Below, in pieces: positions 26,609 to 64,000 of a stretch of 64,000 nucleotides of DNA. Every line of letters starts with the position of its first letter. The first letter of the stretch is position 1. The stretch lies in the NCBI GenBank assembly GCA_000611775.1, contig KK106981.1, forward strand, positions 9,632,619-9,696,618. Reading direction: 5' to 3'. The translations under genes and the position numbers were made by a program. Source of the stretch: Umbilicaria muhlenbergii (Eukaryota; Ascomycota; Lecanoromycetes; Umbilicariales; Umbilicariaceae). The notes under the pieces were generated by a model that was given only the letters and a program-made list of their open reading frames with translations, made no database searches and was not told where the DNA came from.

Positions 26609-26973
26609 AGTCAGAGGTTGCTTCGACACACAGTTTGGGCTTCTTGATGTTCCAGATGCAGTGAGTCGGGGAGCTGGGTTTACACGTGATTTTCGGTAGG
26701 ATGACATGGTAGCTTGGCACAAGCTATGTAGGTATTTACACCTTTCATTATCACACTCTTTCAGCCAACAGAAATAAGAAGTGGCATTTGACCCACCAAG
26801 CGTTTGTTCTGCAAGCTATGTGTGTAACTCCTGGTGAACACTGATGCTGTGATGACTAATCGTGCCCTAACTCACATGATGCACCAACCTGCAAGCGAAA
26901 GCTCAGCACAAGCGGCACCCCACTTTTTTCCCAAACCCTCCTCATCCCCAACGACCATAGCCGACCATCAGCC

Positions 26974-29033
26974 ATGCCCCCCCAATTCCCCTCCATCCAA
27001 TCCTTCTTCGGCCGCGACCCCTCCCTCCGCACCCCACCCCCCCACGCCGACTCCCCAGCTCCAGAACCCGACGGACCCGGCTCCAGCTCCCCAGGTGCCC
27101 CCGGCTCCGGCTTCACCGCCTCCGACGTCGCCGCCGTCCTGCACCCCGCCGGCCTGCCCACATGGAACCCGCCCAAAGAATACGCCGAGGTGGAAATCGG
27201 CGCGCTGGTGCCCGGGCCGCTGTGTGTGGCGATTACGGGGCGGGTGGTGAATTTCTTCGACCGCAGCGTGAACGGGGGTAAGATGGCGCGGGCGGCGCGG
27301 GGGTGTTTGAGATGTGTGGTTGGGGATGGGACGGGGTTTGTGGTGGTGGGTTTCGCTTGTTCTGGTTCTGGTTCTGGTTCTGTTTTGTTGGGGAGATGTG
27401 CGGGCGCGCTGATCGTTGGGAGTTGTTGGGTGATGCAGGTGAAGCTGTGGTATGGGAAGGTGGAGTATAGGCTTCGACTGGGCGGTTTGGTGAGGGTGTG
27501 GACGCCGCATGTTTCGAAGGCGGAGGCNNNNNNNNNNNNNNNNNNNNNNNNNNNGGGCGGGGATGAGTAGGAGTGGGGGGGGGTTGACCATGTCGGTGTT
27601 TCCGGAGAGGGATTGTAGTTGCTATTTTGTGGTGCGGGAGGGGAGGGATGAGGGGGGGTTGTGTAGGATTCCGGTGGGGTATCGGGAGGGGAGGGCGTTG
27701 GATGGGTTGATGACGATGAAGAGTTTTGTGGAGGGGGGGAGCGAGGTGCTGGGTGGGAGGATTTTGGTGGCGGTGAAGAGTATTGGGGGGAGGAAGAAGT
27801 GTGAGTTGTCCATACGAATATCAGCTAGATGGCTGGTATGTGGTTTTGGGGTTTTACTGACTATCCACAATAGTTACTACGAAGAAGGGGAACCCGGCTG
27901 AGAAAGTCGATGTCCACGTTTTCGACGATACTGCCGATGCTACGCTCACGCTATGGGGGTGTGTTGCTGGGTCTGCGAGTGCCTGGAAACCGTCAAGTAC
28001 GATACTGCTGCTTTCGAGTGCGGCTCTCAAGGAGTACACACGGCCTATCTTGTCCTTGACTGCAGATACTCATGTCGAGATCGATCCGGCTATCGCTGAT
28101 GCGGAGTGGTTACGCAAGTACGCGCAGAACTTGACGAAGAGGGAACATGTTAACCCACCGTACCCTGAAAATGGTATGTCATGAGGTCGGCGTCTCTGCA
28201 GCGTCGGATAGGAAGCGCTGATGGTTACAGTGTTTGATGTCGAACAGTTCAAGGAGTCACAGTTACGCATGTTATTTACACTGGCTGACATCGATGAGTT
28301 GTAAGTCCGGCCCAGCCCATCTGAACTATAGCAACACAAGAAAAGCTGACCGTTCCCAACAGCGCTCGAGCAGCTCCCACAGGTGCCACATCCTCCCCCC
28401 TATCACAGCAACCGCATTCCTAACCCCAAGCAGAGGTCTTCATGGGCTACTTCAGCCTCATAATCACCGAACTCAACATCATGACTTACTATCAGCGTAA
28501 CATGCTCTTCGGCACCGAATGGTCCGTCATCCCAAACCTCCTTCCATGCATGCTGCCCTAACTCTTTCTAACAGCTGCGGCGTCCCCCTCTTCGCCAACG
28601 CCACATCCACAAAATGCAAACAGTGCGAGAAAGACGTTGTCCTCTCTATTAATCCTCACATCGTACGTCCTCTCCTTTACCCCCTCTCCCACTCCCTCTC
28701 CTTCTCCCTCCCCTTCCCTTCCCACACATATCCCCATGAACCCCCACTTATCTCCCCCAAACCCCCAACCCATCCCCCTTCATCCCCACCTAACCCCCCG
28801 CCATGCAGATCGGACCCCTAACCGACGAAACCGGCCACATCGGCACCGGCAAACTCATCTGGTCCCCCCAAGCCTGGGAACAACTGCTTGGACGCACGGC
28901 TTCAGAATTTGTCGGCGCGGGGACGGAAGTGTTGAAGTATATGGAACATCGGTTGTTGTTTATGCGCGTGACGGTTTTGTTTGGGTGGAGTGGGGAGGTG
29001 GGAAAGTTGTGTGTTTGTGAGGTTGGGACCTGA
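26974..29033 (+). CDS. OB-fold, RPA1-like single-stranded-DNA-binding protein (contains assembly gap)
   Basis: Probable nuclear DNA-binding protein; the OB folds plus a C-terminal Cys cluster recall RPA1 and meiotic MEIOB-type proteins, but the exact orthology is not certain. Exons: 26974-27345, 27439-~27800 (interrupted by 27 N at 27528-27554), 27874-28173, 28231-28300, a 20-bp microexon 28363-28382, 28434-28521, 28575-28662, 28809-29033. Key stretches are the N-terminal PSIQSFFGRD, an OB strand set (ITGRVVNFFD...VKLWYGKVEYRLRLGGLVRV), HVFDDTADATLTLWGCVAGS, and a zinc-type CKQCEKDVVLSINPHI. Across the N gap the frame changes from 26974-phase to 27509-phase, so the gap length is not real. The coding strand is strongly G-rich after 27,200, unlike the C-rich first exon. 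The last five junctions close in phase. Confidence 0.72.
27528..27554. other. Assembly gap (27 N)
   Basis: A run of 27 undetermined bases inside the second coding exon of the OB-fold gene. Flanking coding frames differ by one, so the true length is not 27. Confidence 0.99.
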
Positions 29034-39891: not shown

Positions 39892-42800
39892 ATGTCTATC
39901 ATCGGTAAATTGACAGCATCCGCGGCCAGTGGCACTGTCGAAATAACGCCTGCTCTTGCGAATTTCAACTTCGATTTCGCCCTGTACAGAATTGAAGCGC
40001 CCAAGGAGTTTGAAGGCGTTGGTGCTGCTTTATCCAATTTCCGACGGCAGGAGGCTGAGAGCGGCATGTCTCACACCACGGCTCGAAAGCTCGGCGCTCT
40101 TTTTGAACAATTGCTTCCCCCAGTTCCAGAACTTATCAAAGCCTACGGCCAAAGAGCGTCAGAGATATCTCAATCTTCATCTATTGATCCTCAAATACGT
40201 AGCACCTACGGCGTCTTTGCCAGTCGAGTTGGTACAGATGCCACTAGCTTATGGGCAGCAGCTACTTCTGGCCAAGCAGCAATAGCCGTCCACTTACTTG
40301 CTTGCATGCTAGCTAAGATCTGGGAAGGGTCCGAGGCAACATCCATCTGGGTTGAGATTGTTAAGAGGAGGAAGGAGGAAGTCAGTGCCGAGTTCGAGCG
40401 GGACAATGTTGTCAACATGGCTACTTTTGCTGCCGCAAAACAAGAGTTGACACGAACCCAAATGGCGGAATGGGATGCCAGTGCACGTGCGTGGTTGAGA
40501 GCAGCAAACGCGGTTAAAACGAAACAGCAGCGTCAACTGATGTTGATTCTCGACAACATTCAGATGCCTGTCAACCTGACGGCCGACACATATGGAAGTG
40601 TAATTAAAGCGTGGAGAAACTCTCTAGTGCAGATGGAGGGTTTGATCAAGGGCGTTGCTCAACAGGCACAAGGCGGTGATATTCTTCTGGCCCTCTCCGC
40701 CTGGCATCTTTATCCAGATATTATCGTCGTTGTTCCTAGTTCAGCACATGTCCGCCAGCACGATCCGATCTTTGCCTCAGGGGGTGTGTTGACCATTGGA
40801 CTACCCAAACTGAACTGTGAGCACCCTGGCATATATTGGTCATTACCGTTAGCACATCTTCGACACTACGGTGCGCCTGTTAGATCAGCACGCTCAATCG
40901 ATAGCAGTGAGCAATCCAGGATATCCCTCGAGGAGCTCTTGCAAGCCGCTCTCGGTTGTGTTCTCCAGGGGTGGGGCGACGCCGGATCAAACACTTCAAG
41001 GGCCTTGGGCTGGCTTTCTCGAGTATCAGACATGCTCAGCGATAATACGTTGGCTGACTTGGCGAAAGCCCGGGCAATGGTCCATGGAGAGGCGAATGCA
41101 TCCTGGTTCAATCTTCTGCTCATGGCCTCAAAATATTATTTCACAGCCACAGGCAATGAACGGAGCGTTGCGAACAAGCTAATATCTCTAGGGCGCAAGC
41201 ACGGGAGAGCGTTCCTAGGCCTTCCGCCAATGCCACTACTAGGACTGCTCGAGCATGGTGCTTTTGTTAGCCTGATCAAGACAGAAGACGGAAAGATCGA
41301 GCTTCTCCGCAAGGTTGCGAAGGATTATGCCGCGGAGATGTTTGTAGAAAGTCATCGGATCTTCATTCGATATAGCCGGCGGTATCCAAGATGGTCTAAA
41401 ACTGTTTACGAGTATGCGACTGCATTGCCGTGGAGCAGATTGACGCACAAGAGGAAGTTTGACGATTCACAACAACAGGGCACAGGACATTGTCGATGGC
41501 TACATGCTGGGGGTAACTTGCGTCGACGTGCATCCAGCTCAACATACTATCGAAAGTTGGACTCAGTTTATTTAAGGGAAAAGGTGTTCCCATTTAGCGT
41601 TCAAAAGACCAGGCATATGGTTCCTGCTGATTTTGCGCACTGGCATGCAACCCGGGGGCACGCCAAAACCTCATTCGAAACAGAACGGGACTTGTTTACT
41701 AAAGACGAGTCCGAGCAGATTCATCAAGAGTTCGAAATTAGGAGGCGATTTTATTCTTCAAAAGGAGAAGATATAGCCAGACGAGAAGATTGGCTTATTG
41801 AAGACTTCGCTTTAGAAACAATGGGTATATTTTGGGAGGACACGGAAATGTCCAGTGCGACCCCAGACACAGGAGACCAAGGGACGACCCCCTGGTTTAA
41901 GTTTCTCTACGGCGATGTTGATTCAGCAGCTCTCTTTGTCGTTGAGGGCCGAGAACAGTTGATCAATCTTGTTCGCACGGTTGAGAAAGATTCAGATGCG
42001 TTCTATTCACTCTTTGAGTCAGACCAAACAGATGCCAACAGTGTAGTAAATCGATTACACACAATATTCCAAAGGGCTAACATGGAGATTGATCCTCACC
42101 TCAAATCTCTCAAGGCTTTGTCTAGCGCAGCAAAGGTGTACAAAACCTTCGGAAACGCTTCGGTCGATGTTCGAGTCCTACAACAACGTCTTTACGATGC
42201 GTATTGGGTACAGCCCCTGAGAAGAGAACTTTCACCCATCAACTACAAGAGCGAACCACACGAAACTCCTGACTCTCTTCGTCCTTTCACACTAGACCGA
42301 GCAAGCGCCTTTGCGTGCGTTACTATGTTTGAGTCAGGCACGTATAACGCCAAACCAGCCGACCTTAAAAACGTCATGGCAATGTCATCTGGAGACTCAA
42401 TATACGTCGCAGCAACATTGTTGTGCGACCCATCCGAGAACACTCCTCAGGGAGAAATCAGACGAATCTCGGGTAACATCGGACGTCCCGGTATAGCATT
42501 CATGGTACCCCCAACGGACCCACTAATGAAAGAAGTCTCATTAACGGAATGGCCCCAAATCAGCCGCAACGATTTCGACGGCCAAATTAAGAATTGTTTC
42601 CAGCCTACCTCCCTGCACCTCTCCTTCACGAGCGCTCAAACCTCCCTATTCATCGGATTCTCCGGCGCCCAAGACACCGACGTCTACATGCTCGAGACCC
42701 TCATCTCCTTACACTACGGCGGGAAATGGTTCGCCGACTTGGACATTCTCAAAGCGATCAACAGCCTCAAATTGAGACGCCTGCCTCCATGCGACGACCC

Positions 42801-43062
42801 CAACTGCGGAGGAGCGCAGGGGCTCAAATCGCAAGTCACGTGCATCGACAACTGGCTCGAGCTGGTGGATGCGCCGGAGCAACATACCAGCCTTGTGCGG
42901 GCGCACCGGAATTGGCAAGCCAGACTGGCGGCTACGGCGATCAGTATTGCCAAGGGGTACGACACGCTCGTTCTGCCGGACGAGGTGTGTTGGCAGTGTT
43001 TCGATCGGGTGATCAATAAATATTGGTGGCAGAAGCATAATCAGGTCATTGCGATCGGATGA
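39892..43062 (+). CDS. Large conserved fungal protein of unknown function (1056 aa)
   Basis: One intronless frame of 1056 residues, unusual in this intron-bearing window. It begins MSIIGKLTASAASGTVEITP and shows no transmembrane segment or signal peptide. Clear blocks are FNFDFALYRIEAPKEFEGVG, HTTARKLGALFEQLLPPVPE, TSGQAAIAVHLLACMLAKIW and AWHLYPDIIVVVPSSAHVRQ, and a Cys-bearing C-terminal part (RLPPCDDPNCGG, EVCWQCFDRVINKYWWQKHN). I recognise the opening as typical of a family widespread and multi-copy in filamentous ascomycetes, but know no assigned function. The last third, from about residue 780, has a run that reads like a surveillance or metabolite-binding fold, but I cannot support one. 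It is intact, flanked by gene-poor sequence, and has no obvious partner gene. Confidence 0.8.
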   Translation: MSIIGKLTASAASGTVEITPALANFNFDFALYRIEAPKEFEGVGAALSNFRRQEAESGMSHTTARKLGALFEQLLPPVPELIKAYGQRASEISQSSSIDPQIRSTYGVFASRVGTDATSLWAAATSGQAAIAVHLLACMLAKIWEGSEATSIWVEIVKRRKEEVSAEFERDNVVNMATFAAAKQELTRTQMAEWDASARAWLRAANAVKTKQQRQLMLILDNIQMPVNLTADTYGSVIKAWRNSLVQMEGLIKGVAQQAQGGDILLALSAWHLYPDIIVVVPSSAHVRQHDPIFASGGVLTIGLPKLNCEHPGIYWSLPLAHLRHYGAPVRSARSIDSSEQSRISLEELLQAALGCVLQGWGDAGSNTSRALGWLSRVSDMLSDNTLADLAKARAMVHGEANASWFNLLLMASKYYFTATGNERSVANKLISLGRKHGRAFLGLPPMPLLGLLEHGAFVSLIKTEDGKIELLRKVAKDYAAEMFVESHRIFIRYSRRYPRWSKTVYEYATALPWSRLTHKRKFDDSQQQGTGHCRWLHAGGNLRRRASSSTYYRKLDSVYLREKVFPFSVQKTRHMVPADFAHWHATRGHAKTSFETERDLFTKDESEQIHQEFEIRRRFYSSKGEDIARREDWLIEDFALETMGIFWEDTEMSSATPDTGDQGTTPWFKFLYGDVDSAALFVVEGREQLINLVRTVEKDSDAFYSLFESDQTDANSVVNRLHTIFQRANMEIDPHLKSLKALSSAAKVYKTFGNASVDVRVLQQRLYDAYWVQPLRRELSPINYKSEPHETPDSLRPFTLDRASAFACVTMFESGTYNAKPADLKNVMAMSSGDSIYVAATLLCDPSENTPQGEIRRISGNIGRPGIAFMVPPTDPLMKEVSLTEWPQISRNDFDGQIKNCFQPTSLHLSFTSAQTSLFIGFSGAQDTDVYMLETLISLHYGGKWFADLDILKAINSLKLRRLPPCDDPNCGGAQGLKSQVTCIDNWLELVDAPEQHTSLVRAHRNWQARLAATAISIAKGYDTLVLPDEVCWQCFDRVINKYWWQKHNQVIAIG

Positions 43063-58558: not shown

Positions 58559-60105
58559 TCACCTTTCCCCGTGTAGTCTTCGCCCGTTGTCTCTTGATAT
58601 GCCCTTCGGTTTCCCAGATCCCCTGACCGTCCTATTGTTCTTTCCCTTCCGCTCCGGCTTTGAACGTGCCGTACGTCTGGAGGAATCTTCCGAAGCCGTC
58701 CTGATCGGGTTTTCAATTACGCTAGAGTGTGGCCGTCTTGGTCGTTCAGTTCCGCGCGGAAGTGTATAGGGTGGCAATGGCAGCCTTTTCGTTGGATCAT
58801 CGACACCCCAAGTGAACAGTAAGGTACCAGTTATCGGGTCATAGATGTGCCGTCGTTGGTGAGGGCCACGCCGCCTTTCCCCAGTAGCTTTGGCTACCTT
58901 CGATGGATGGACGGGGCCCAGAGTTTCGTCTGCGATTGGCTGATCTCTTTGGGTAGGTTTCCGATTACGTGATCGGAACGGTTGTAGCATTGTAGGACGG
59001 AAAACCTGTCCATCATCCCTGGCATGATGCGGGTTTGGCGTGGCGCTATTGTAAGCAACATCGTGATTCTCGATGAGCTCTGTTGTGGAGCACTGACAAA
59101 CCCAGACTCTTGGGCACGACTTGATTCGAAGGGAGAAGGGGATCCAAAAATACTTCTGGGAGGTACTAGCGGCAGTTGTGCGTTCCCAAGCGGGCTCGCT
59201 GAAATTGGACTATCGTCGATGATGTGCTCGAAAGGCTCTTCATGCTTCCACGACATCCCGGGTAGTATACCCCATTTGCTGTTCCAAATTTTTCGCTTAA
59301 TCCAGGTATTCTTTACATTCTCGTATACCCTTGTATTGATGTCCGCAGTATTACTCCCTTCCGCACTGCTCGATTCGTGTTCGATCCGTTCCCGCTCTTT
59401 TGGTATCTGAAAGACGAACTGATGGTATGGACGGGAGGCCTCACGTTCACGCTCCCGTATGACTCGTCGCTCTGCAATCCTTCGCCTCTCCTCGTCGCTC
59501 TTAGGCCGTCTCGGTTTGGGGGGCTGCTTTGGAGGCGCGAATGAAAAGAATGGTAGAGGTGGAGTTTCTGCTTCCGAGTCTGTCTCCGATTCTGACTCAA
59601 GCTCGAGCGGTTCTTCATGCTTCCACCGCCCTCCAGCCCTCTCAGTCCATTTGTTGTTCCAGATGCCTTGGTCGACCCAGCTCTTCTTGACCTTTTCATA
59701 GACTTTTTCATAGACCATTTTATCGAAAGAACTCCCAACGGGAATATGAATCATCCGATTTGTTCTTAGTTCCGCGCACCAAAGCCGCTCCATCTCTTCG
59801 CTTACCTGAGCCTCGAATTGATAGTAAGGAAGTGAGGCCGTAGACTCACAATCAAGCTGCCACCATGGTCGCTGCTCGGTGGGAGGGTTAGGACTCATAG
59901 TCCGGGTTGTCGTGCCCGATGGGTACGATCTATAAGGTGGTGGAGAATCGCTAAACGGCATACTTGCATCATTGAATAAGCCAGCCATGAATGATGTTAT
60001 TAGACAGCAGAGATGAGATCGCGATCTGAAGGGACTGACGAGAGTAAATGAAGGGTCGTAGGAGAGAGGGCGGATACTGTTCTGCTGATGATAGTCTGAG
60101 GCCAT
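58559..60105 (-). CDS. Protein with internal duplication (WKHEEP repeat), unknown function
   Basis: Minus-strand exons 59167-60105 and 58559-59092 close in phase (490 residues); the intron uses GTACCT...GTCAG. ATG 60105 is the first methionine of the frame. Two similar units of about 75 residues occur. Unit 1 is YYQFEAQVSEEMERLW...YEKVKKSWVDQGIWNNKW...GRWKHEEPLE. Unit 2 is YHQFVFQIPKERERI...YENVKNTWIKRKIWNSKW...MSWKHEEPFE. They are separated by a charged, Arg/Glu-rich linker. The C-terminal part holds YDPITGTLLFTWGVDDPTKR and then a highly basic tail. No catalytic motif is visible. The repeat suggests two copies of a small binding module. The TIR element begins 81 bp upstream of the ATG, so it sits in the promoter. 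Confidence 0.65.
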
Positions 60106-60185
60106 GTTGAGAGGTTGCTTTGAAGAGCCAGCACAAAGAAGAAGTCCCCGGCTTTGTTTACTGCCGAGCGACAAGTGAGTCTAAG

Positions 60186-61095
60186 GGGCCTCGTACAACG
60201 ACACCCCTATTTCTTACGTTGACCCCCGTTTTCATACATTGACCCTGCCAAAAACGCTAATCGTTTTAGGCGACTATTTGCAGATTTCGTGATTTTCTGT
60301 ATTAGATTCTAAGGCGTGCTTTTCGGTGCCTTTGAACGCTCGTTTTCAAGCCTTTTTCATGCTCAATTTATGGAGATCTAGCTAACATTTAAATAGAGAC
60401 CACCACCGCCCCTCACCTCACTGCCACCGCCGCCACCTCCTCTACTTTGCCGCCGCCGCTGCCACCACTCCCGTTCCCCTCTCTGAAAACCTAAGACGGC
60501 CTCAGTCAATGAAGTGCGGCCAGAAGTTCACCAGCTAACTGACCAGCTAGGTCGTTGCATCTATAGCGTGCCACGGAGGGGGAGACTCACTGACTAGCTA
60601 ACTGAAATGACCTTATCAATCTGTCTGAAACCTCTAATAGAAAAGAGTCCCTCAAGCTCACTGCCCTTGCTGTCTCTGAGGCCCATCTCGCTGACACAAT
60701 TAGCAACACGGGGAGGGTCAGTAAATTGAGGAGGGGGTTGTCTGCTGCTCCTGTGCATGCTCATCAACGGCTCTCATAAGGGTTTGAACTGTTGAAAAGA
60801 ACTCCTCCATACGGAGTGACTATAGACTCATTGGGGGGCAGGTGCGTCATCCTCTAGTGAGGATGAAAGGTCATAGTCCATAATTCAGAGGTAAAAGAGA
60901 GCAGGCGCAGGGCTTTTTTGCAATGAAAGATTGCGGGTGAGAACACGTTTCAAAAGCAGCTTGTTGAATCTAAGTGTTCTTCTATACCCAAAACAGCTCG
61001 CTAGCCACGTGACTGCTACCTATCTTGGGGGGATGTCGATTTTTGGAAACAGAGGTGTCAACGTAAGAAATAGGCGTGTCGTTTTACGAGGACCC
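60186..61095. mobile_element. 910-bp non-autonomous DNA element with terminal inverted repeats
   Basis: The first 39 bases (GGGGCCTCGTACAACGACAC...) and the reverse complement of the last 39 (GGGTCCTCGTAAAACGACAC...) agree at 36 positions, including CCTATTTCTTACGTTGAC. The interior has no transposase frame; it has CCACCGCC-type repeats near 60,400-60,470 and CAGCTAACTGA repeats. A target-site duplication is not obvious at either end. It resembles a MITE or a deletion derivative of a larger cut-and-paste transposon. Confidence 0.8.
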
Positions 61096-61128
61096 AGTGA
61101 GCCAGTCTAGAGGTAGGAGTCAGAGACG

Positions 61129-61551
61129 TGTTAAACCGTTGATTTAGGATTAGCGCCCAGCTGTAGACTACCGTAGCTACAACCCGCAAGGCGTCGGGTC
61201 AAAATAAGTGGCAGTTCCAGGCAACGGGATCCAGGCTACCTCTGCACCAAATACATAACTGACTGGAATAGTTAGAGATTTTACAACGATGGATTATAGA
61301 GCTCAATGGTGTTGAATTTCGCCGATTCGCCGCCGAGCAGACGTCATTGGGGCAGGGGTTCCTAGCAAGAGAAGCAGTCACGTCATGGGTGTACGTATGT
61401 TTTGGCTTAGCGAAAAGCTCCTTAACATGTATATTAACGGCTCGAAAGCCTCGAGTTTCTGCTTTCTTCCTTACGTTCATTTATATCATTTGGGTGATAT
61501 TTAGGCAGATACAATACATTTATTTGGTCTCTATATCGTCCCATTACAACA
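61129..61551 (+). mobile_element. Probable 5' LTR of a Ty1/copia retrotransposon
   Basis: The right border is set by the primer-binding site that follows directly after ...TTACAACA at 61551. The left border is proposed at TGTTAAACC (61129) because LTRs start TG and end CA. The 423-bp length is normal for copia elements. The 3' LTR is outside the window, so the left edge cannot be confirmed. Confidence 0.5.
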
Positions 61552-61566
61552 GGTTATGAGCCCGGT
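61552..61566 (+). other. Primer-binding site complementary to the anticodon half of initiator tRNA-Met
   Basis: GGTTATGAGCCCGGT is complementary to the anticodon arm of eukaryotic tRNA-iMet, which contains GGGCTCATAACC. Copia-class elements are known to prime with a cleaved 5' half of this tRNA, and the site lies immediately after the LTR as expected. Confidence 0.7.
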
Positions 61567-61891
61567 CAGTGTCTAAACTACCGCCTGTTGCTGTTGCCTA
61601 CCACCTCCGCCCTAACCCTCACTGCCCTAACCCCCGCCGCCGTCGAGCAAGTCGAGCAACCAAAGTTTGCTTCGATATAAACCTTCGATATCGGCCAGTT
61701 ATAAAGTCGAAAAACCGACCGAAAAAGACGTCAATTCTTCGTACGAATTCCACTCCGAAAATCGAACGAATAGAAACGTCTATATATATACGAAGGCTCA
61801 ACGAATAGAACTTCGAATAAATACCCACACCCCCGAGTCGTTATCCACGCCGCCGCGTACGCAGAAGGCAGTCACACGGCCCTAAAAGAGC

Positions 61892-64000
61892 ATGGAATAC
61901 GAGTCTCCGAAGGCCTCAGGCCTAGTCAAACTCAATGAGACGAACTACGCCCAATGGGCAGGGAGAACAAGGGGTTATTTGGAAGCACGGGGCTACTGAG
62001 ACGTCATAGACGGGACCGACGCTGCGCCAGAGGGGAAGAAGGGTTTGGATGGGAAGACATTGGAGCCTCCCATTGAGGAGTATAAGAAGTGGAGAAGGAC
62101 TGATAGGAAGGCCTGGAATGACATATTGTCACTTTGCTCCCAGGAGGACGGAACGTTCTACAAACTGAAGACAGCAAAGGAGCTTTGGGACCGCCTTGAG
62201 AACATCAAGAAGCCTAAGGGCAAGTCGTACTACCGGTCACAGCTTAGGGCATTCGTCAATTACAAGCAAGGACCGAAGGAGACGGCGGAGCAGGCTTACC
62301 ACGCCTTGAAGAAAATCCAGGCGGAGATTACGGTGCTTAAACCAAAGGCGCCCATCAATGATGACATGGTTCAGGAAGTGTTCCTTGGCTCCCTAAAGGA
62401 GGAGCCTTACGGCCCAGTTGTATTTCAAATAAACAACGAAATCGTGGACCCTGAAATCGAGACCGTTCTACGCCAATTGAAGGAGCGAGAAATGGAAGAA
62501 GCGTCGAATAATAAATCGACTAATAATGCCACCGCAAACGCAGCCCAAGCAGGAAGCAAAGGCAAAGACGGCAAGGCAGGAAAAACATGTTTTCAGTGCC
62601 AGAAAAGGGGGCATTTCGCCTCCGATTGCTACGCTTTGAAGATGAAAGACGGGGAAGAACTACCTCCTAACGGAGTTAAACCACCGCCAAAGTTCAAGGC
62701 AAATGCACGGCAAGCCAACGAAAATCCGGGGCCGGCGGAAGATTCGAAAAATTTGAAAGATCCGACTAGCCAGGACAACGAGTCCAACTCAGATGGATGA
62801 GCATGAAAGGCAGTGGCTATGGAAGCCCTAGCCAACCTAGAACTAACCCCCGACTGCTGGATTGTGGACTCCGGAGCGAGCCACCACATGACTCCGAATT
62901 GAGCAATTTTTGTCGAAATTCAGAACTATTACACGGAAGTCTGCTTAGCCAATGGGCACTCGATAAAAGCAGCTGGTATGGGCAAGGTGGAAGTTGATTT
63001 TGAAGGGAGAAAACTCACCCTAAATGACGTCCTCTATGTCCCCGAATTGGATGGAAATTTGCTGTCAATTGGGGCAGCAAGCAAGCACGGAATAACAGTT
63101 GAATTTGGGCTTAAAAACGTTGTTTTTAAGCATAATGGAAGCGTCGTGGCCACAGCAAACCAACACGGTTCGGTCTATGTTGTCAAGTCGACGAGCGCAA
63201 AAGTGGCCTTTAAGGTCCAAGCCTACCAAAAATTGATGAGCAGCCTGGCAGCCCCAGCGACAGCAGGGGGAGGATCACCTACGCCAGGGCTCACTCCAGA
63301 GCTAGTGGGAGCAGTACCAGGCAGCATGATTGCCAGTTCCGCCACCCCCTATCCAAAAACGGGTTTAGGGCACATTACCCCTGAAACCCCCGAAAATTCC
63401 AATTTTTCCACACAGGCCCAATCCGACTACTGGAAGTGGCATCGGAGGTTTGGCCATGCTGGGGCAAGCCGTATGCAACGCCTCAAGCCGTGTGTGGAGG
63501 GTATAACCCGCGAATTACGCCCTAACGAGGCGGAGAAAGCCTGCTCGACATGCTTGCATAGCAAGATGATACGGGTACAGGCCAAGGAGTCAAAGCCAAC
63601 GGCTACAAAACGCCTGCAACGAGTCTATTCAGACATTTGGGGAGCCTACCGTGTCAATACTCTAGGTGGAAACCAGTATTTTGTTACCTTTACGGACGAA
63701 TTTGCCTGATATTCTGATATTTTCTTAATGGCAAAGAAGACGGATATCTACGAAATATTCAAGACTTGAAAGACGAAAGCTGAGAAAGAAACCGGCGAGA
63801 AATTGGAGGTTGTACGGGCTGACAATGGCGGAGAATATATGAAATTGGCAAGCATATGAGGGCCAGAGGGGGTGGAATTCAAATTTACCACCACCTACAC
63901 GCCTGAGCAGAACGGCGTCTCTGAACGCCTAAATCATACGATTACGGAAGCAACTAGATGCATGCTTTACGACGCTCAATTGCCAACTAAATTTTGGGGC
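61892..64000 (+). mobile_element. Ty1/copia gag-pol, continuous frame with seven TGA codons, cut off by window end
   Basis: One frame from ATG 61892 to the window end (703 codons) encodes, in order: Gag (LVKLNETNYAQWAGRTRGYL; KKWRRTDRKAWNDILSLCSQ), a CCHC zinc knuckle (CFQCQKRGHFASDC), the protease site (WIVDSGASHHMTP), the GAG-pre-integrase region (YWKWHRRFGHAGASRMQRLK) and the integrase core (VVRADNGGEYMK; TYTPEQNGVSERLN). Reverse transcriptase and RNase H lie beyond the window. Stops are at 61997, 62798, 62804, 62900, 63707, 63767 and 63857; all are TGA, and there are no TAA, TAG or frameshifts. Under the standard code the element is not translatable as a whole, so it is annotated as degenerate, but see the findings. 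The longest uninterrupted pieces are 62000-62800 and 62903-63709. Confidence 0.9.

Follow-up and report, generated by a model that had tools for sequence, protein, structure and literature searches.

A Copia-like element at the end of the window

The window (the whole stretch of DNA analysed here, 64,000 nt from Umbilicaria muhlenbergii) encodes an inositol-phosphate synthase, a phosphatidylserine decarboxylase, and an ATPase with a fungal AAA+ lid domain (Pfam). Judging by the domains and their order, positions 61892–64000 most likely come from the 5′ portion of a single Ty1/Copia retrotransposon copy in a fungal genome. The features of the element are:

61310..61551, + strand: candidate 5′ LTR, 242 bp, TGTTG...CAACA ends (read from the sequence)
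61552..61567, + strand: candidate primer binding site GGTTATGAGCCCGGTC, half-tRNA(iMet) type, directly 3′ of the candidate LTR
61892..62797, + strand: gag part with Retrotran_gag_2 and CCHC zinc knuckle (Pfam); TGA at 61997
62798..62806, + strand: two TGA with one codon between them, in the linker between zinc knuckle and protease side
62858..63091, + strand: Pol_BBD (PF22936), codons 323–400, with DSGAS motif (Pfam, E 2.7e-24, above cut-off); TGA at 62900
63389..63568, + strand: gag_pre-integrs (PF13976), codons 500–559 (Pfam, E 3.1e-9, above cut-off)
63608..64000, + strand: integrase core (Pfam and Ty1 match), cut by the window end; TGA at 63707, 63767, and 63857

Within the gag part, Retrotran_gag_2 (PF14223) spans codons 27–205 (Pfam, E 3.5e-12, above cut-off) and the zinc knuckle codons 231–246 (Pfam, E 3.2e-4). 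In the integrase core, the Pfam rve match (codons 573–671, E 5.8e-4) lies below its curated cut-off, and the Ty1 integrase matches codons 551–702 (E 1.7e-8). No reverse transcriptase lies between the protease-side domain and the integrase 3′ of it; reverse transcriptase, RNase H, and the 3′ LTR lie beyond the window. The element resembles the Ty1/Copia superfamily (Pseudoviridae) in having gag (PF14223), zinc knuckle, Pol_BBD, gag_pre-integrs, and integrase in the same order, and in matching Ty1 integrase and the Copia-like records L001–L005, but differs in its seven in-frame TGA codons. The candidate LTR was recognized from its ends and the adjoining primer site, and GGTTATGAGCCCGGTC presumably resembles the complement of the initiator tRNA anticodon arm. 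With its candidate primer site directly after the LTR, the element may resemble half-tRNA(iMet)-primed Copia elements (hemiviruses) such as Drosophila copia and Ty5. Half-tRNA priming of hemiviruses is described in PMC1181622.

The preliminary description had taken the host code to be standard, and it looks so: six of 11 mechanical host-side ORFs checked end in TGA, and seven of ten scanned ORFs match Pfam domains in frames without internal stops. Between the mechanical ORF at 58894–60174 and the candidate LTR, a pair of 42-nt inverted repeats (60185–61095) is 90% complementary and 827 nt apart; it could be what remains of a foldback or TIR element, and no clear target duplication was seen there. 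A run of 27 N (27528–27554) lies inside the mechanical ORF 26968–27591. The window holds no other copy of the Copia element, no tRNA gene, and no Rfam match at gathering score.

A long frame with TGA as its only stop

The Copia frame opens with an ATG at 61892, with an in-frame TAA ending at 61885 directly 5′ of it, and runs to the window end as one frame of 703 codons without a frameshift. As had been reported before, its in-frame stops are all TGA, at 61997, 62798, 62804, 62900, 63707, 63767, and 63857 (codons 36, 303, 305, 337, 606, 626, and 656), with no TAA and no TAG beside 26 Gln codons. Read with the standard code, Gag terminates after 35 codons. In each of the remaining five frames of 61892–64000, TAA, TAG, and TGA all occur; the stops number 23 to 38 per frame, and 15 to 22 of these are TAA or TAG.

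The preliminary description had put the chance of such a pattern at 1 in 2,200 by giving the three stops equal probabilities; here, mutational opportunity was counted over the 696 sense codons. Taken only as guides, since the opportunity template is the post-mutation sequence and the pattern was picked post hoc from a scan, so that they overstate the surprise, the P values for seven of seven TGA are 5.5e-6 with equal rates, 9.6e-6 with kappa 3, 1.5e-5 with kappa 3 and GC-to-AT doubled, 8.1e-5 when CpG ×5 is added, 3.4e-4 with CpG ×10, 2.1e-3 with CpG ×20, 4.5e-5 with C-to-T only, 3.9e-3 with C-to-T only and CpG ×10, 2.4e-11 with C-to-T only and CpA ×10 (CpA-type RIP), and 1 if mutation is confined to CpG or is C-to-T avoiding CpA. 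Under the ordinary mutation models, then, a TGA-only set of stops is unlikely (5.5e-6 to 2.1e-3, as guides), and seven stops imply 147 to 312 substitutions.

The earlier doubt that CpA-biased RIP could produce the pattern is well founded, given the P value of 2.4e-11. CpA-type RIP was rejected as a candidate on the absence of TAA and TAG and on its indices (TpA/ApT 0.78, substrate index 1.30, composite −0.52). The composite index is negative in both the candidate LTR and the Copia ORF, and positive at 61096–61309 and 61552–61891 (0.61 and 0.77), stretches too short to conclude from.

Distant relatives and the mutational trace

Relatives of the element were sought in several sequence sets. No close relative was confirmed in viral contigs, with the window element, L001, and L003/L004 as queries, and none was found among phages or in prokaryote genome contigs, which yielded three distant Copia-like contigs filed as MAGs. 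Plasmid records gave five matches with E values no higher than 10, of which two are clear, and a further search of such records returned the same two, NC_015657 (L006), and a weak match in NZ_CP104070. Identity of the matches to the window is 26–40% (L006 is not in this figure), and no fungal sequence was identified among the matches from the viral, prokaryote, plasmid, and phage sets. NZ_CP115302.1 (L001), NZ_CP115454.1 (L002), and NC_015657.1 (L006) are small records deposited as actinobacterial "plasmids", with coding sequences for Copia-like retrotransposon proteins; the sequences L001–L006 in bacterial plasmid records and MAG contigs are probably eukaryotic contamination.

These six distant Copia-like sequences were aligned together with the Ty1 integrase, a set of seven in which L001 and L002 are nearly identical. 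Codon 337 stands opposite K in three of three sequences, one of them doubtful because L006 aligns poorly outside the integrase (two of two without it). Codon 606 is opposite R or K in six of seven and H in one; codon 626 is opposite F, F, F, Y, W, I, and V (aromatic in five of seven); and codon 656 is opposite L in five of seven, then C and Q. At codon 36, where the alignment is weak, the residues are W, H, and an A that is doubtful since it comes from L006 (H and W without it), and codons 303 and 305 fall in a linker without reliable alignment. The expectation that tryptophan is the family's residue at several of the TGA sites is therefore not upheld in general, as W occurs in one relative at codon 36, in one of seven at codon 626, and in none at codons 337, 606, and 656, the relatives being distant. 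The basic residues at codons 337 and 606 argue against Trp and the hydrophobic residues at codons 626 and 656 against Arg, and decoding of UGA as one single residue fits poorly with this alignment.

Residue counts were also compared. The window copy has nine Trp in 703 codons, against 9/749 and 10/667 in two relatives, and reading all TGA as Trp would raise this to 16/703 (P 0.03 given the rate in the two relatives). Arg stands at 27/703, against 34/749 and 31/667 in the same two, and CGA makes up 2 of the 27 Arg codons in the Copia frame, compared with 39 of 254 in the host-side ORFs. Conservation at the protein level leans towards decay as far as the small numbers in the alignment allow: the window keeps 20 of the 24 columns that are invariant in at least four of five relatives, a smaller share than in four of the five others when each is left out in turn (20/21, 20/22, 20/22, and 15/16; Ty1 20/30). 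The four changed columns include codons 585 and 684, at both of which the change would require a transversion. Three relatives, L004, L005, and L006, were examined for frame breaks. The match to each of them changes frame along its length, and the aligned stretches contain 0, 1, and 0 stops, respectively, which is the opposite of the pattern in the window copy.

Synonymous sites were compared with nine host-side ORFs (4012 codons, with 39892–43059 and 58897–60174 lacking a Pfam match). At third positions in CpG, the element has 89/193 (0.461) and the host side 566/1161 (0.488), a converted fraction of 0.05 with an upper limit of 0.20. At GpG the values are 29/51 (0.569) and 127/260 (0.488), so that the converted fraction is below zero (upper limit 0.11), and CpA shows a mild deficit (84/140 vs. 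602/872, fraction 0.13). CpG observed/expected is slightly low in the Copia ORF (0.81, compared with 0.88 in window positions 1–60000), and the candidate LTR (1.23, 242 bp) and leader (1.58, 340 bp) are CpG-rich. At 20% conversion, at least seven of nine CGA codons would be hit with P 3.1e-4, and at least four of six with P 0.017. Hence a process able to yield TGA only left no clear trace in this copy. Third-position C before C is more frequent in the element (0.71 vs. 0.50), which has no bearing on TGA; third-position composition is otherwise broadly host-like and gives no clear sign of foreign origin.

A probable inactivated copy and its alternatives

We consider it likely that this is an inactivated Copia copy in which Arg (CGA) and Trp (TGG) codons became stops by G:C-to-A:T transition. 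What is observed directly is the unbroken frame with its domains, the stops in it and the fact that all are TGA, and the mixture of residues that distant relatives have at these sites. On the proposed route, such transitions would have struck CGA and TGG codons to give the seven TGA: a single one turns CGA into TGA as the only possible stop and TGG into TGA as one of two, CpG deamination would yield TGA as the only stop, and point mutation without indels would have left the frame intact. The original codons at the TGA sites, the deamination process, and the death of the copy are what we infer from these data. A TGG-to-TGA and CGA-to-TGA process had been among the explanations first proposed, and it gives the best fit to the aligned residues, although the synonymous-site trace expected of it is weak or absent.

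Several lines of evidence count for transitions at CGA and TGG. Basic residues at codons 337 and 606 with an aromatic one at codon 626 fit CGA and TGG sources as no single reassignment does; Arg is lower than in the two relatives while Trp already equals theirs; and CGA is scarce among Arg codons in an ORF with slightly low CpG. The host-side ORFs ending in TGA likewise count for an inactivated copy. All seven stops are TGA, the sole product expected of CpG-type hypermutation, and a parallel is found in the CpG-biased hypermutation of Rhizoctonia solani AG8, where TGA is the expected primary nonsense product (PMC4014442). The dominance of TGA there is the authors' reasoning (PMC4014442), and unlike in that fungus, no clear CpG depletion is seen here at synonymous sites, in the candidate LTR, or in the leader.

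On the other hand, if CpG or GpG conversion was as frequent as the stops suggest, depletion at synonymous sites would be expected, unlike what is observed, and the CpG-rich candidate LTR and leader also count against the transitions. So do the mild CpA deficit alongside Gln codons that gave no TAA or TAG, the frame switching in three relatives, and the TGA-only probability, which unless CpA is spared is 5.5e-6 to 3.9e-3 (as a guide), and less under CpA-type RIP. Since synonymous sites have no strong C-to-T excess, the TGA-only pattern is only partly explained, and this missing trace holds down our confidence in an inactivated copy.

Plain neutral decay without any special process would make the TGA-only pattern and the lack of indels a matter of luck, noticed because many windows were read. 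The post hoc choice of the pattern, the mixed residues in distant relatives, and the four changed columns (with the probable transversions at codons 585 and 684) all suit it. However, some indels are expected alongside as many substitutions as ordinary models imply, and none is seen, and the stops themselves are improbable under those models; we regard decay of this kind as unlikely. Far less probable, in our judgement, is that the element or its source lineage reads UGA as sense (Trp, or Arg), with the frame open and kept by selection. The absence of TAA, TAG, and frameshifts across 703 codons, domains recognizable along the whole frame, the lack of a strong hypermutation trace at synonymous sites, and the low probability of the pattern under decay models not sparing CpA (5.5e-6 to 3.9e-3, as guides) speak for it. 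Yet neither Trp nor Arg fits both the two K/R sites and the two mostly hydrophobic ones, and reading all TGA as Trp would lift the Trp count above the rate in two relatives (P 0.03). Host-side ORFs use TGA as a terminator, and the seven that match Pfam domains can be read without any TGA inside them. Also contrary to it are the broadly host-like third-position composition (C before C excepted) and the lower share of conserved columns. If a Copia lineage in fungi tolerated UGA as a sense codon or made use of it, in a host where UGA otherwise terminates translation, and perhaps decoded it ambiguously as Trp or Arg by near-cognate tRNAs, the unbroken frame and the variety of residues would both be accounted for; we think this very improbable. 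In plant systems, near-cognate tRNAs for Trp and Arg are known to read UGA (PMC2194720). Judged by titles and abstract openings, no paper found in the open-access literature deals with a Copia element of a fungus that has numerous TGA codons in frame.

Two of the TGA lie in the linker that joins the zinc knuckle to the protease side, a position that recalls Tca2 of Candida albicans, likewise a Copia-type element of a fungus, in which an in-frame UGA separates gag from pol (PMC2194720). One UGA near 62798 could be a programmed gag/pol readthrough stop, as has been suggested for Tca2, the others being decay. We give this the least credence, because two stops lie one codon apart and five elsewhere, one of them at codon 36, and because the fold of 62790–62900 is ordinary (z −0.61, pseudoknots being outside the fold test). 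For Tca2 a single UGA is described, and the window copy has seven, with five lying away from the gag/pol linker; the Tca2 junction sequence gave no readthrough in S. cerevisiae (PMC2194720).

Another route to a translated frame, A-to-I RNA editing of UGA, is unlikely. A-to-I editing after G is disfavoured. If the frame were truly translated, a mobile element would be giving UGA a meaning of its own inside a standard-code nucleus, and we know of no such element in fungi. On present evidence, a dead retrotransposon copy is the most likely reading.
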